48,925 nucleotides of DNA. It comes from Chloroherpeton thalassium. GTDB lineage: Bacteria > Bacteroidota > Ignavibacteria > Kapaibacteriales > UBA2268. Under the pieces are notes generated by a model that did no database searches, was not told where the DNA came from, and worked only from the letters and a program-made list of their open reading frames with translations. The translations under genes and the position numbers were made by a program. Shown here one piece after another: positions 3,983 to 15,638 of the stretch. Position 1 is the first letter of the stretch. Each line of letters opens with the position of its first letter. The stretch covers positions 1 to 48,925 of the forward strand of contig DYLM01000001.1 in assembly GCA_020722095.1 (NCBI GenBank). Reading direction: 5' to 3'.

Positions 3983-5617
3983 ATGAAAAAAATCTTATTA
4001 GTATTTTTTATCCTGAATTTTGGCATAATCTACTCTCAAATTGATTATTCTAAAATAACAGGAATTTCAAAGTTGAAATTGGATACATTGGCTTTACAAA
4101 ATGCAATGGAAGTGTCCAAACAAACTCAATCATTGTTAGAAAAAGAGATTGACCCTAACTTGTATAAAGTTGGACCAGGAGATAAATTTGAATTTTCAAT
4201 TTTCACCACTCAACCCGAAGTCTATCCAATTAAAGTTTCACCTGAAAGTAAATTGATGATCCCTACAGTAGGATTAATCAATGTAAAAGATTTAAACCTA
4301 ACAGAAGTCTATAAAATCGCAGAAGAAAAGATTAAAAAAGCATATAAAACAACTGAATATGGCTTTATGCTCTCCCAACCAAGACAATTTAAGGTTATCG
4401 TAAGTGGCTCGGTAGCAAAATCAATGAGTATTCCAGCATCTCCAACCGACAGAGCATCCGAAGTAATCGAAAGAGCGGGCGGACTTAGATTCGATGCTTC
4501 ACTTAGGAATATTTCGCTTATTCGGGGAGATAGTGTTATTCCTATCGACTTATTAAAATTCTTTCTTGCTGGTATCAAAGAAGCAAATCCATTTTTGGAA
4601 GGTGGCGACCAAATAATAATTCCTCCGAGTAGTGAACGGCAGAAAATCAGCATTTTCGGTGAAGTAGGTTATCCCGGTGAATTTGAATTTATTCCCGGTG
4701 ATTCGCTTTCCACTTTAATAAGATTTGCTCAAGGTTTTCTTGCATCTGCTCAATTAGATTCAGTTGAAATAAGTAGGTTTAAAGAAGATGAAAAAGCACT
4801 TGAAATCTTTTTTGTAGATTTATCGGAGTGGAGCAATATATTGAATACTCGTGATGATTTGCAAGGAGATTTCCCATTACAGATTGGCGATAGAGTATTA
4901 GTAAGAATTATTCCAAATTGGAATAAGGAAAACTACGTTGTTATATCTGGAGAAGTTAAGTATCCAGGGAAATATGCAATTATTGAAAATAAAGATAAGA
5001 TCTATGATTTGTTGTTGCGATGTGGTGGTTTCACCGAAGATGCTTCTGTTGCAGATATTGAATTCATTCGCCAACAAGAAACAGAAAAGAAAGATTTCGA
5101 AATGGAGCGATTATATCGAACACCCTTTTCAGAAATGTCCGAATTTGAACAAAGATATTTCCAGTCTCGTGTGCGAGAGAAGCGAGGAGCAATGGCTGTT
5201 GACTGGAATAATGCAATACAACAACCCTCAAGCGACCAAAACATTTCACTTTTCAATAAGGATTCAATTATTGTTCCAACTAAGAAAAATTATATAAATG
5301 TGCAGGGTAGAGTAAATAATCCCGGTTATGTAGTATTTGTTGAGGGCTGGACTTATCTTGATTATATCAATCAAGCAGGTGGATTTGGTTATAGAGCAGA
5401 TGATAGGGAAACTTTTATCGCTAAAAGTCGCGGGGAGATATTCTTAGCGAAGGATATGAATTATGTGATTGAACCTGGTGATGTGATTCTTGTTCCACCA
5501 GAAAAAGAAATTTCATTCTCCGAAGTTTTCAAAGATGTCATTACAACTATAGCACAATTAACTACAATTTTGGGTGTATTATTCACTATTTACAGTGCGC
5601 TTCCCAAAAAACAATAA
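3983..5617 (+). CDS. Polysaccharide export protein with SLBB domains (Wza-like)
   Basis: A 544-residue envelope protein. It has an N-terminal signal peptide (about residues 1-19, basic start, hydrophobic core, no lipobox), a poly-export domain with the KVGPGDKFEFSIF motif near residues 62-74, then several SLBB repeats (ISIFGEVGYPGEFEFIPGDSL, VVISGEVKYPGKY, INVQGRVNNPGYV) and a hydrophobic C-terminal segment around residues 515-538. This is the Wza-type subunit that carries exo- or capsular polysaccharide through the periplasm and outer membrane. The extra SLBB repeats and the C-terminal hydrophobic helix are common in Bacteroidota and Chlorobi versions. It opens an operon with the Wzz-like gene (33 nt) and an RSH gene. 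Specific polymerase genes are not in the window. Confidence 0.9.
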   Translation: MKKILLVFFILNFGIIYSQIDYSKITGISKLKLDTLALQNAMEVSKQTQSLLEKEIDPNLYKVGPGDKFEFSIFTTQPEVYPIKVSPESKLMIPTVGLINVKDLNLTEVYKIAEEKIKKAYKTTEYGFMLSQPRQFKVIVSGSVAKSMSIPASPTDRASEVIERAGGLRFDASLRNISLIRGDSVIPIDLLKFFLAGIKEANPFLEGGDQIIIPPSSERQKISIFGEVGYPGEFEFIPGDSLSTLIRFAQGFLASAQLDSVEISRFKEDEKALEIFFVDLSEWSNILNTRDDLQGDFPLQIGDRVLVRIIPNWNKENYVVISGEVKYPGKYAIIENKDKIYDLLLRCGGFTEDASVADIEFIRQQETEKKDFEMERLYRTPFSEMSEFEQRYFQSRVREKRGAMAVDWNNAIQQPSSDQNISLFNKDSIIVPTKKNYINVQGRVNNPGYVVFVEGWTYLDYINQAGGFGYRADDRETFIAKSRGEIFLAKDMNYVIEPGDVILVPPEKEISFSEVFKDVITTIAQLTTILGVLFTIYSALPKKQ

Positions 5618-5650: not shown

Positions 5651-6814
5651 ATGAAACTTAAAGAATTATCCAATGCATCATTTAAAGATTTGTCCATTAC
5701 TGTCTCTTCAAATAAGAGACAGATAAGTTTATTAATAATTGGATTGTATTTTGTGCTAATTATTTTTATGATTGTTACACCATTCAATTATGTTGCAGAT
5801 TATTCTATAATGCCACCCAAACAGCAAAGTTCTGCAATGAATTTGTCTGCGATGATGCAAAATGTTGGAATAGCTGGAATGGCGGGCATTGGTGGACTGC
5901 AACAATCTAATTTATCTTCGTTTTATTCAGAAGTTCTACGTAGCCGAAGTGTAGCAGTTTATATTATTGACTCATTGCAATTACAAAAAACTTCATTTTT
6001 CCGAAAATTACCTCGCGCAAAATTAATCGAGGAATTATCTTTGTCAATAAAACCTCTTGTTGATAAAAGTGGTGTAATCTATACTTCGGTATCATTATGG
6101 ACTGGATTTTTCCCAAGCAAGTCGCTTAAAGATTCTGCTGCATTACTATCCAAACAAATTGCTAATTACTCAATATATGCATTGGACTACATTCTTCGTC
6201 AGCGGACCAATAATGTTTCAGGTAAAACTAAAGATTTTATTTCGGGCGAAATCATAGTCTATTCCAAAAAATTAGACTCTATACAAAAGCAAATTGAAAA
6301 TTTTCAAACTCAAAACAAAGTTCTGGAGTTAGAAGAGCAAACCAAAGCAATTGTTGGACAAGCAAACGAATTAGCTGTGGAACTTGCTAAAGCTGAAGTG
6401 GAAATGAATTTAGCTAATAATTTATATTCAGACAATTCCCAAACAACAAGAATTCTCAAACAAAATTATTCAGTTTTGAAAAGTCAATTTGACAAAATTC
6501 AAACTGGCGGATTAACTGCTAATGATAAGTTTTCTATTCCTTTGAATGAAATTCCTTCATTGATTAGGCAATACACTAACTTAATAAGAGATCAAAAACT
6601 TTATGAACAAATACTTGCGTATTTAAAGACAAATTACTTCCAAGAGGCAATTCAAGAAAAGAAAGATGTGCCTCAAATTGATGTGCTTGATTGGGCTGTA
6701 AAACCCTATGAAAAGAACTTTCCATCATATTCTCTATTACTAATAGTTGGCTCTATAATTATCTTAACAATAACAATTATTTATATTTTATTTAAAGCAT
6801 TTGTAACAAAATAA
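5651..6814 (+). CDS. Wzz/BcsF-type chain-length determinant-like membrane protein
   Basis: A 387-residue inner-membrane protein with two transmembrane helices, about residues 27-47 (ISLLIIGLYFVLIIFMIVT) and 358-383 near the C-terminus. They bracket a large periplasmic domain containing a Gln/Glu/Lys-rich coiled coil (about residues 200-275). That is the polysaccharide co-polymerase (Wzz/PCP) layout, which sets polymer length and works with the Wza-like exporter encoded just upstream. There is no C-terminal tyrosine-kinase domain. A Met/Gly/Ala-rich stretch (residues 55-85) occurs right after the first helix. It is followed after only 11 nt by the RSH gene, so the three genes are almost certainly one transcript. 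Confidence 0.85.
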   Translation: MKLKELSNASFKDLSITVSSNKRQISLLIIGLYFVLIIFMIVTPFNYVADYSIMPPKQQSSAMNLSAMMQNVGIAGMAGIGGLQQSNLSSFYSEVLRSRSVAVYIIDSLQLQKTSFFRKLPRAKLIEELSLSIKPLVDKSGVIYTSVSLWTGFFPSKSLKDSAALLSKQIANYSIYALDYILRQRTNNVSGKTKDFISGEIIVYSKKLDSIQKQIENFQTQNKVLELEEQTKAIVGQANELAVELAKAEVEMNLANNLYSDNSQTTRILKQNYSVLKSQFDKIQTGGLTANDKFSIPLNEIPSLIRQYTNLIRDQKLYEQILAYLKTNYFQEAIQEKKDVPQIDVLDWAVKPYEKNFPSYSLLLIVGSIIILTITIIYILFKAFVTK

Positions 6815-6825
6815 ATTTCAGAAAT

Positions 6826-8769
6826 ATGGAAATTAAACAAGCCTCAGAATCTGCACTCATTGACGATTATGCAGAAGGATTTGGAAAAGATACAAAACAG
6901 GATTTTGATTTTTTAATAAATAAATTATTACCTCATAATCCCGATGCAGATGTTGATTTTCTAAAAAGTGTTTTTGCTTTTGCTGTGTTTCACCATAGAA
7001 ATCAGTATCGTAAATCAGGACAGAGATACTATGTGCATTTATTATGGGTTGCATTATTTCTTATTGAGAGATTTAAAATTTATGATGAGATTTATATTGC
7101 TGCTGCATTGCTTCACGATACAATTGAAGATACCCAACAAAATATCCAAAAAGTTTCTCGCGACCTAATTACTCGTAAATTTGGCAATCAAAACTTAGCT
7201 TTAGCAGTGGAAGCATTAACCAAAATTTCAAACGATAATATAAAGCAAGACGTAGGATTGAATTTCAATATAATTAATAAAATTCAAGCTAATCATAATT
7301 TCGATGACTATTTGAATAATAAAACTATTCAGAAAGGTCTGACGTACTGTAAGCTTTTTATGACATTTGTTACCGATCCGAATGTTATAGTCATCAAACT
7401 TTCAGATAGGCTTCACAATATGAAGACTTTGCAATATTTTGAGGAGGGTCGCTCCAAAGAAGAAGCACTAAAAAAGCAAAGAGCTATTGCAAGCGAAACA
7501 ATGCAGTTCTATGTTGGTTTTGCATATCGCTTGGGATACTCAGATATTGCTAATGAATTGATTCAATTATCATTTAGGTATCTTTCTGACTCAAATTTAC
7601 AAAAAGAAATACGTTCAATAATCAATCAAAATATGGACAAAATTATGAACAAAATTTCAATTTTTGAGTCAAGAATAAATAATAAACTACTTGAAACTGG
7701 TTTAGATATCATCAAGTTAAATGTCTATCACAGACCAGACTATGAAATTTATAATCTCACCAATAAACTTAAGAATTTGAATGCCATCAAAGATTTTGTA
7801 AATTGCGTTATACCCGTACCCAAACCAATTGACATTGAATTTGCAAGTTCAATAATTGCCTCGATTTTTCCTACTAAATTTTATTCACAACAAAAGATGC
7901 AGTTTTCAGAATATATTTTTGAAGTAATAAAATTAACCATCTCAAATATAGAAAATGATGATGAATTGGAAATTGTGTTTTTGAGCGACGAAGACCATAA
8001 TATACTTGAAGAACAATCAGTTAAGCGATCTAATTTACATTTAACGAACAAAATAATAAATATCACTAATGAGGATCTAAATACTTGGGGTGAATGGATG
8101 ATATACACATTATTCCATTCAGCCGAAGATGCTATTCCAATAATATGGGAATCGGTGGAGCGAAACATTTTTAAAGAAAAGATTAAATGTTATTATTTGA
8201 ATAAAGGTGAATATTCATTACCACAAAATTCAACAATTAATGACTTTATTTTAATCATAAATAAAGAATATAATACTAATTACAATGCTGCGAAGATATT
8301 CGACAAAAATGTTGATAACATTTATGTCCTACAAGGTGGAGAAATCATACAGTTATACTATAACGACACATTATCAAACAACAAAATTAATTTCCATCAA
8401 CTAATCGACTATCGCTCAATAAGTTATTTATACAAGTATTTATATGAGACTAATCAATTAAATTTTGACCAAATTAATATCGCAATAACAGAAGAGGAAG
8501 ATATTTCAACTGAAAGAATCTCAACTGGTATGCTTCGTGAAATAATTACAATTGAAGGAAACGATAGAAATGATTTAGTCAAGGATATTTATGCGGTATT
8601 TGATAGAAATTCTGTCTTAAAATACTCATTCAAAAGCAATGAAGCCGACAAGACTTTCCAAGGTGTGATTGAAGCACAATTTTCCAATCGCTATCAAAGC
8701 AATCAGAAACTACTTGATTTAATGGGAATTAGAAGTGTTAAGTCTATCAATATTGTTGATTTAAAATAA
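6826..8769 (+). CDS. RelA/SpoT homologue: intact (p)ppGpp hydrolase domain, degenerate synthetase domain, TGS and ACT
   Basis: A 647-residue protein with long-RSH architecture. Residues 45-215 are a SpoT-type HD hydrolase with all expected metal and substrate residues visible: QYRKSGQRYYVH (R62, H71), LLHDTIEDT (H97, D98, E101, D102) and KLSDRLHNMKTL (D194, N198). Residues about 285-450 occupy the synthetase position, but I find none of its motifs (no PKPNGYQSLHT-like or EIQIRT-like segment). Residues 452-512 resemble a TGS domain (YYLNKGEYSLPQNSTINDF...GGEIIQL) and about 565-647 an ACT domain. It therefore looks able to degrade but not make (p)ppGpp. Its place 11 nt after the Wzz-like gene ties it to polysaccharide export. 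It might be the cell's only long RSH or a specialised paralogue; that cannot be told from this window. Confidence 0.85.
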   Translation: MEIKQASESALIDDYAEGFGKDTKQDFDFLINKLLPHNPDADVDFLKSVFAFAVFHHRNQYRKSGQRYYVHLLWVALFLIERFKIYDEIYIAAALLHDTIEDTQQNIQKVSRDLITRKFGNQNLALAVEALTKISNDNIKQDVGLNFNIINKIQANHNFDDYLNNKTIQKGLTYCKLFMTFVTDPNVIVIKLSDRLHNMKTLQYFEEGRSKEEALKKQRAIASETMQFYVGFAYRLGYSDIANELIQLSFRYLSDSNLQKEIRSIINQNMDKIMNKISIFESRINNKLLETGLDIIKLNVYHRPDYEIYNLTNKLKNLNAIKDFVNCVIPVPKPIDIEFASSIIASIFPTKFYSQQKMQFSEYIFEVIKLTISNIENDDELEIVFLSDEDHNILEEQSVKRSNLHLTNKIINITNEDLNTWGEWMIYTLFHSAEDAIPIIWESVERNIFKEKIKCYYLNKGEYSLPQNSTINDFILIINKEYNTNYNAAKIFDKNVDNIYVLQGGEIIQLYYNDTLSNNKINFHQLIDYRSISYLYKYLYETNQLNFDQINIAITEEEDISTERISTGMLREIITIEGNDRNDLVKDIYAVFDRNSVLKYSFKSNEADKTFQGVIEAQFSNRYQSNQKLLDLMGIRSVKSINIVDLK

Positions 8770-14103: not shown

Positions 14104-14175
14104 GGCATATTCGTCTAGTGGTTAGGACGCTGGCCTCTCACGCCGGTAACAGGGGTTCGAATCCCCTATGTGCTA
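14104..14175 (+). tRNA. tRNA-Glu (anticodon CUC)
   Basis: The cloverleaf can be folded by eye. The acceptor stem pairs ggcatat with atgtgct, with a terminal G-U; a 3-bp D stem (gtc/gac) flanks agtggttagg. The anticodon stem ctggc/gccgg encloses the loop ctctcac, giving anticodon CTC at positions 34-36. The T arm is agggg-ttcgaat-cccct and the discriminator base is A. The sequence closely parallels E. coli tRNA-Glu apart from the anticodon wobble base. CCA is not encoded; the genomic sequence after the discriminator is caaaa. It stands alone between dprA and the flippase gene. Confidence 0.95.
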
Positions 14176-14297: not shown

Positions 14298-15638
14298 ATG
14301 CAAATCAAAAATCATTTAGCAAAAATATCTTGGGCACTTGCAGACAAGGCATTATTCATTTTGTATGGGTTTATTTTCCTAATAATTATTCACTACACTA
14401 ATGTTGATGATTATGGACTATATTCACTTTTAGTAGTAATTCATACTTGGATTTTTACAATCAGCGATTCATTCTCGCTGCAAAGCATTATTCAATTTGG
14501 TTTTGATGAAAAGAACCAGAAAAAAGTAAATTTAATTAGTCTAATAATACATATAACCTTTACTTTATCAATTGCGTTAATAATTTTACTTTTATCAGGC
14601 ATCCTCTCAGGCTTATACGAGCCAAGAATTGGGGAAGTTGCATTTTATTTGCCATTATTAACCCTCGCATTTATTCCGAGGACTTTTGCTCAAAAGTTAA
14701 TTTATCGCAATCAAAGTATGCTAAAATTATTTATTTCGAATGCGTTTTTCTTCGGCACCACTACAATTTACTTGGGATATATAATATTGACTAACAAACA
14801 TTTATCGTTTAATAATTTAGTTTACAGTTATATATTTGGTGGAATTATTAGTTCAGTTATCACTTTATTTCTTGTTAAACAAGACCTTCGATTCAGCAGA
14901 AATGGTACAATTAACATTAAGAAAATAATAAATTTCAATTGGAAAACAACAATAATTGGTTTGTTATACTCATTTCCTAAACAATTTGAGTTAATTATTT
15001 TGAAATTCTTCTTTTCATTAGAGATTATTGGATTATACTCAGCTGCTAAAACTCTATTCAGAATTTTCGAAGAAGCCATTAGTGCGGTTACAGGTTTGCT
15101 TTACCCATCGTATGTAAAACAAATAGAAAGTAATAGAATGGATGATGCCAAAGATTTATTAATAAAATCTACTTCTTATGTTTTTTGGTCTTTTATCATA
15201 ATATCTTTGATTATAGTTAGTCCAGTGGGAACTTTGATTTTTGATTATATTATACCCGATAAATTCAATAAGTCAATGACTTATTTTTATTGGTTTTTAG
15301 CAATGTCTCCATTTTTATCTTTCCATCTATTTTACGCTTTATTCACTGCGATGAAACACTTAAAAATTATACTTATTGCCGAAATATTCTCAATAATCAT
15401 ATTTTTAATCATCTTCTTATTCGTATCTTACAATAATTTAACTAACTATATATCTTTTGGATTAATGGCATACAATATAGTTTTAGGTCTTTTTGGTTAC
15501 TTTATAGTTCAGAAAAGGTTAGATTATAAATTTTCTTACCTTTTTAGATTGTTTAATGATTTAAAATTTTTCTTTTTAAGAATAAAATGGCTACCTCATA
15601 ACTATGACGCCTCCGCGAAGCAATCTAAAAAAAAGTAG
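14298..15638 (+). CDS. Polysaccharide/lipid-linked oligosaccharide flippase (Wzx/MATE-like)
   Basis: A 446-residue very hydrophobic protein with about 12 predicted transmembrane helices from start to end. It has the N-terminal ISWALADKALFILYGFIFL and YGLYSLL pattern seen in polysaccharide-biosynthesis (Wzx-like) transporters, and a middle segment IIGLYSAAKTLFRIFEEA that matches the same family. Such proteins flip undecaprenyl-linked oligosaccharides across the inner membrane. No dedicated sugar cluster surrounds it here; it is separated from the tRNA by 122 nt and followed by a G-rich repeat block. The exact substrate cannot be deduced. Confidence 0.8.
   Translation: MQIKNHLAKISWALADKALFILYGFIFLIIIHYTNVDDYGLYSLLVVIHTWIFTISDSFSLQSIIQFGFDEKNQKKVNLISLIIHITFTLSIALIILLLSGILSGLYEPRIGEVAFYLPLLTLAFIPRTFAQKLIYRNQSMLKLFISNAFFFGTTTIYLGYIILTNKHLSFNNLVYSYIFGGIISSVITLFLVKQDLRFSRNGTINIKKIINFNWKTTIIGLLYSFPKQFELIILKFFFSLEIIGLYSAAKTLFRIFEEAISAVTGLLYPSYVKQIESNRMDDAKDLLIKSTSYVFWSFIIISLIIVSPVGTLIFDYIIPDKFNKSMTYFYWFLAMSPFLSFHLFYALFTAMKHLKIILIAEIFSIIIFLIIFLFVSYNNLTNYISFGLMAYNIVLGLFGYFIVQKRLDYKFSYLFRLFNDLKFFFLRIKWLPHNYDASAKQSKKK

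Follow-up and report, generated by a model that had tools for sequence, protein, structure and literature searches.

A predicted hydrolase-type long RelA/SpoT homologue and its synthetase-type paralogue in a family of Kapaibacteriales

The RSH gene and its domain organization

The window, a stretch of 48,925 nucleotides from a genome labelled Chloroherpeton thalassium, carries a gene for a long RelA/SpoT homologue (RSH) that follows two polysaccharide export genes on the same strand (Table 1). The original prediction had described intact hydrolase residues, no recognizable synthetase, remaining TGS and ACT-like parts, and a start 11 nt after a Wzz-like gene in line with a Wza-like gene. The alignment, the profile searches, the structure model and the coordinates bore out each of these points. 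Hereafter, P denotes the hydrolase-type long RSH paralogue (the window gene, 6826-8769), C the synthetase-type paralogue, T a third RSH class, and O the outgroup Rels.

Table 1. Features at the RSH locus, in positions of the window
Feature	Position	Strand	Basis
Wza-like SLBB polysaccharide export gene	3983..5617	+	SLBB 6.6e-25, Poly_export 6.3e-08
Wzz-like chain-length/co-polymerase gene, ending 11 nt before the RSH gene	5651..6814	+	weak GNVR/KpsE-type matches
Predicted hydrolase-only long RSH (P), HD - pseudo-synthetase - TGS - ACT, 647 aa	6826..8769	+	ORF, profiles, model, residues
Predicted HD_4 (p)ppGpp hydrolase domain; R62, H71, H97, D98, E101, D102, D194 intact	6976..7539	+	PF13328 3.5e-20 in the genome-wide search; residue mapping
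Pseudo-synthetase; fold predicted, catalytic residues gone	7576..8013	+	no PF04607 match, residue losses, AlphaFold2, Foldseek to Rel catalytic domains
Long helix linking pseudo-synthetase and TGS, where long RSHs have the "Core" (assigned by position)	8068..8172	+	AlphaFold2 helix 415-449
TGS domain	8179..8370	+	weak Pfam; profile matches 2kmm, 7doj, 3hvz
ACT/RRM domain; HEL and ZFD, normally ahead of ACT, absent	8527..8766	+	alignment, 2ko1 profile, model, 3ibw TM-score 0.82 by target length

The reading frame starts with ATG. HD_4 was detected in the protein with 69.6 bits (E 3.4e-19, Pfam). The RelA_SpoT synthetase profile PF04607 gave no match to it even at E<=1, and a genome-wide PF04607 search also missed the ORF. 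The NCBIfam model spoT_relA scored 162 bits against a cut-off of 499, mainly over residues 50-334. The TGS domain was sub-threshold in Pfam (16.3 bits), and a comparison of the family profile with solved structures supported both TGS (2kmm, 7doj) and ACT (2ko1/3ibw). The helical (HEL) and zinc-finger/CC (ZFD) domains were not found between TGS and ACT, where all P rows shown have a gap and the model has a short linker. In terms of the features of long RSHs, the window protein therefore has the R-H-HDxxED-D residues of HD_4 together with TGS and ACT, and it lacks intact synthetase motifs and HEL/ZFD.

The AlphaFold2 model of P, built with 45 family members, has a pLDDT of 83. Its top Foldseek matches were B. 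subtilis Rel, A. baumannii SpoT and RelA, the first two at full length, and the Rel catalytic domains matched with a TM-score of ~0.7 by target length over ~380 columns. According to the model, the degraded synthetase domain of P keeps its fold. The dN/dS ratio against an 84%-identical orthologue is ~0.06 (NG86), with dS near saturation, and purifying selection acts on the window gene. Pseudogene formation or sequencing decay was ruled out by this selection and by the open frame in relatives.

Catalytic residues and reciprocal loss in two paralogues

Seven hydrolase and 11 synthetase positions were scored by alignment, with RelSeq numbering for the equivalents. The window protein keeps all seven hydrolase residues, R62, H71, H97, D98, E101, D102 and D194 being equivalent to R44, H53, H77, D78, E81, D82 and D144. 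Nine of the 11 synthetase residues are changed (R241 to Y301, K243 to R303, S247 to E307, K251 to N310, N306 to F360, Y308 to F365, H312 to K369, Q325 to V384, and R327 to L386), and only the equivalents of D264 and E323 are retained. H71, H97, D98, D102, K191, D194, and R195 are invariant across the 45 P family members, in which the hydrolase catalytic and metal residues are the most conserved of all.

Profile searches of the contigs of the window's genome (2.46 Mb, 94.65% complete) gave one PF04607 gene and two HD_4 genes. The sole other RSH is a C protein of 705 aa on contig C56 (4,014 bases; L001, 405-2522), so that the genome contains two long RSHs. The C56 protein has the full set of synthetase residues, and all seven of its hydrolase residues are replaced (R44 to H61, H53 to Q70, H77 to F95, D78 to N96, E81 to K99, D82 to N100, and D144 to A164). 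The two genes are complementary because P is intact at 7/7 hydrolase positions and C56, with its live synthetase residues, at 0/7. The same pair is present in three congeners (G001, G002, and G004). No hydrolase-proficient Rel was found elsewhere among the PF13328 matches of the genome, and this genome-wide HD_4 search ruled out a second one in the assembled contigs; the missing 5% of the sequence may encode a further synthetase or hydrolase. A second complete, synthetase-proficient RSH, together with random gene order in relatives, had been named as evidence against the original prediction. A synthetase-proficient second RSH does exist, but it is hydrolase-dead, which strengthens the reading of P as a hydrolase. 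The CC zinc-finger domain, which contacts the ribosome in Rel/RelA, is gone from several C proteins (genera g1, g4, g17, g18, g24, g25, and others), including the genome's only synthetase, C56; in the alignment, the ZFD cysteines are gone from C of the window's genus.

P could instead be a non-catalytic (p)ppGpp sensor that has kept the HD binding pocket and signals via TGS/ACT, as the signal-binding alternative of the original prediction implied. Retention of the accessory TGS and ACT domains would suit such a role. However, the most conserved part of P consists of the metal ligands and the E-D diad, which serve chemistry and not just binding, and the genome has a synthetase with no other intact hydrolase found. 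The alternative is thus weakened, and we consider it very improbable.

The genomes of the window's family were searched with the window protein, PF04607, and PF13328, both Pfam searches spanning all 54 genomes. The relatives are metagenome-assembled genomes and are incomplete. In total, 140 RSH proteins were extracted: 51 C, 52 P, and 21 T proteins from the window's family and 16 O proteins from other families of the order. P and C occur together in 49 of the 54 genomes, and the loss is strictly reciprocal in 45 of these 49. Of the remaining four genomes, two are truncated at contig ends, and the last two are sister genomes with a P lacking E81. The hydrolase set of P is complete (7/7) in 48 of 50 assessable proteins, and a complete synthetase set is found in 0 of 52. 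Conversely, all 51 C proteins have 11/11 synthetase residues, none of 47 has a complete HD set, and the E-D diad is intact in none. Both sites are intact in all 16 O Rels. Conservation follows the same division over 1,081 matched genome pairs (HD 0.49 versus SYN 0.39 in P; SYN 0.62 versus HD 0.50 in C). The Pfam score of the synthetase domain in P falls from 69 bits (G026) through 31 (G013) to no match in the window's genus. Among 99 genomes sampled across the phylum, G000 alone had two long RSH matches; the other 98, all outside the window's family, had one, and some of them also had a small HD_4 protein.

Several variants were observed within the family. Of 47 C proteins, 19 still have all four metal ligands. 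In many C proteins, the diad is swapped from E-D to D-E, and the alignment reads HD/HN-xx-DE in place of HDxxED (genera g18, g20, g21, and others). Some residual ppGpp hydrolysis by the C proteins of some genera, though not in the window's genome, is therefore conceivable. In the two sister genomes of genus g3 (G006, L087; G030, L082), P lacks E81 and C also lacks the diad; to judge from these residues, they may have no canonical hydrolase. One genome (G025, L114 6712-8295) has a second, very divergent hydrolase-type long RSH of 527 aa on a long branch within the P clade. The T proteins are long RSHs of ~680 aa with a zinc-finger domain, found in 21 genomes (e.g., L044 868-2919) and absent from the window's genome. 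Their HD site is intact in 0 of 20, and their synthetase site is intact save H312Q in 21 of 21.

In a tree of 136 RSHs, P forms one clade (support 100), and C and T together form another (99), which is sister to P, with the outgroup Rels outside. In a second tree, which added Rels of the class and phylum and E. coli RelA/SpoT, P and C are sisters (98) within the Rels of the order. The placement of T differs, being inside C in the first tree and beside E. coli RelA in the second. Both trees were quick searches with SH-aLRT support and no bootstrap, and P has long branches. Because P and C are sister clades nested among the Rels of the order, the simplest reading of the sequences is a single duplication at the root of the family followed by complete subfunctionalisation, with one function lost per copy. 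Descent of P from the gamma/betaproteobacterial RelA/SpoT duplication was not recovered in the second tree. The best solved profile match of P was B. subtilis Rel (398.8 bits; A. baumannii SpoT, 282.2), and horizontal gain of a Moraxellaceae-type SpoT was ruled out by the tree and the profile scores.

HD_4 enzymes outside the long RSHs act on other nucleotides, and some small HD_4 hydrolases are reported to act on ppApp or NADPH. P might likewise hydrolyse chiefly such a nucleotide and not ppGpp; its PDB matches include a (p)ppApp hydrolase and MESH1, both weaker than Rel. However, P groups within the Rels as sister to C, the synthetase paralogue, and taking P away would leave the genome with a ppGpp synthetase but no detectable hydrolase. 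Another main substrate is thus hardly to be expected.

Polysaccharide genes beside the RSH

The order wza-wzz-RSH was found in 6 of 7 genomes of g1 (the window's genus) and its sister genus g15, and only there, with gaps of 11 to 64 nt. In the congener G002, P lies away from wza-wzz. Wherever P occurs in the family, a block of M20, dapF, IMPase, wza, and wzz is common. Outside g1/g15, P has unrelated neighbours, and wza-wzz is elsewhere. A search for related loci among the genome contigs returned a single match, L034, on a contig of the relative G001. A scan for promoters and terminators yielded chance-level matches only. Further along the window, a tRNA gene (14104-14175; Rfam, 61 bits) precedes the gene of a Wzx-like flippase at 14298.

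Both in other genera and in the order's other families, a small HD_4 gene resembling small alarmone hydrolases (SAH-like) lies convergent to wzz at its 3' end. Such loci were found in the family (L185 6517-7113 in G028, L186 6519-7115 in G022, L187, L192, L202, and L203) and in outgroups (L205 5535-6134 in G046, L210, and L219). In G028, a recN-like gene and an ftsK gene come next on the strand of the SAH-like gene. Most outgroups keep the HDxxED motif of the SAH-like gene intact, and it is lost in every wzz-linked family copy examined, as if the gene had decayed once a dedicated long hydrolase existed.

The original prediction had P couple polysaccharide export to the stringent response. P would be co-transcribed with wza-wzz and would bring (p)ppGpp down as the export machine is produced, a role compatible with a hydrolase. 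In favour of this are the shared strand, the 11-nt gap, the conserved order in g1 and g15 (6 of 7 genomes), and the SAH-like genes, through which an HD_4 gene beside wzz recurs in other genera and families. However, the neighbours of P are unrelated in the rest of the family, and P of G002 stands apart from wza-wzz. Moreover, the SAH-like gene is read from the other strand together with recN, and in the window's family its catalytic diad is gone. We therefore regard the coupling as unlikely. As a general explanation of P, a role in the exopolysaccharide (EPS) operon was ruled out by gene order across the family, since P is family-wide and beside wza-wzz only in g1/g15. Any direct RSH-EPS link would thus be confined to g1/g15. 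The arrival of P in the slot after wzz, a pattern spotted post hoc, may reflect chance or replacement. It is doubtful that, in g1/g15, P moved into the SAH-like slot of its relatives and (p)ppGpp removal became transcriptionally tied to the export machine, with no other hydrolase present.

A predicted two-gene alarmone system

In a Rel system that has split reciprocally, the window gene very probably encodes the copy dedicated to (p)ppGpp hydrolysis; this part of the original prediction, a specialised hydrolase, is well supported by the sequence comparisons. From the computed residue pattern, reciprocity, tree, domain content, and genome-wide count, we infer that P is catalytic, that C no longer hydrolyses, and that the cell depends on P. 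A bifunctional Rel would have been duplicated in the ancestor of the window's family. In copy P, the HD domain would have stayed a Mn-dependent hydrolase while the chemistry of synthesis was lost, the synthetase fold being kept presumably as a structural part, and copy C, here on contig C56, would have retained the synthetase and lost the hydrolase. The pair would be the whole detectable alarmone system of the genome, in which (p)ppGpp is made by C and degraded by P. Since P alone would degrade it, the cell should require P to keep the alarmone from reaching toxic levels. P keeps Core and TGS and drops HEL/ZFD; therefore, ribosome switching as in Rel is unlikely for P. The C proteins of the window's genus lack the ZFD cysteines, so the control of synthesis by the ribosome may differ from the usual one as well.

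Atkinson et al. (2011, PMC3153485) assigned a bifunctional Rel to most Bacteroidetes and to Chlorobi, listed RshB as a duplicate in Bacteroidia, and described subfunctionalisation as complete in Moraxellaceae. The complete split has so far been described mainly in Acinetobacter and its relatives, and we found no description of it for the window's lineage among the open-licence papers searched. In the SpoT of A. baumannii, hydrolysis is driven by Core and TGS around HD, with the pseudo-SYNTH acting as a structural partner (PMC9974481). The Moraxellaceae pair SpoT[Hs]/RelA[hS] resembles P/C in combining an active-type HD and a dead pseudo-SYNTH with an HD-dead synthetase partner (PMC9974481, PMC3153485). 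P shares with SpoT[Hs] the intact HD, the lost synthetase residues, the predicted pseudo-SYNTH fold, and a mirror-image partner in the genome. However, P is independent in origin and lacks HEL and ZFD, and the split is common to essentially the whole family of 27 genera. In E. coli, Rel is also duplicated with one HD-dead synthetase copy, but SpoT stays bifunctional, whereas P lacks the synthesis residues everywhere. Bacteroides and Porphyromonas likewise have two long RSHs, Rel and RshB, one being predicted to be synthetase-only; in P. gingivalis, this Rel accompanies a bifunctional RshB, whereas the partner here is predicted to be hydrolase-only (PMC6994654). SAH and MESH1 also have an HD_4 hydrolase domain without a working synthetase, but SAH is a stand-alone HD_4 of ~200 aa, whereas P is a multi-domain protein of 647 aa derived from a long RSH by residue loss.

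Surveys that score one RSH as a "bifunctional Rel" would go wrong for the window's family. With P, one can ask which of the long-RSH parts (pseudo-synthetase, HEL, and ZFD) hydrolysis alone requires. The family would represent an independent case, outside Proteobacteria, of a family-wide and complete Rel split whose intermediate stages can still be seen in the P synthetase scores, from 69 bits to undetectable, and in the D-E diads of some C proteins. With one synthetase and one hydrolase in the genome, the pair would form a natural two-gene alarmone system.
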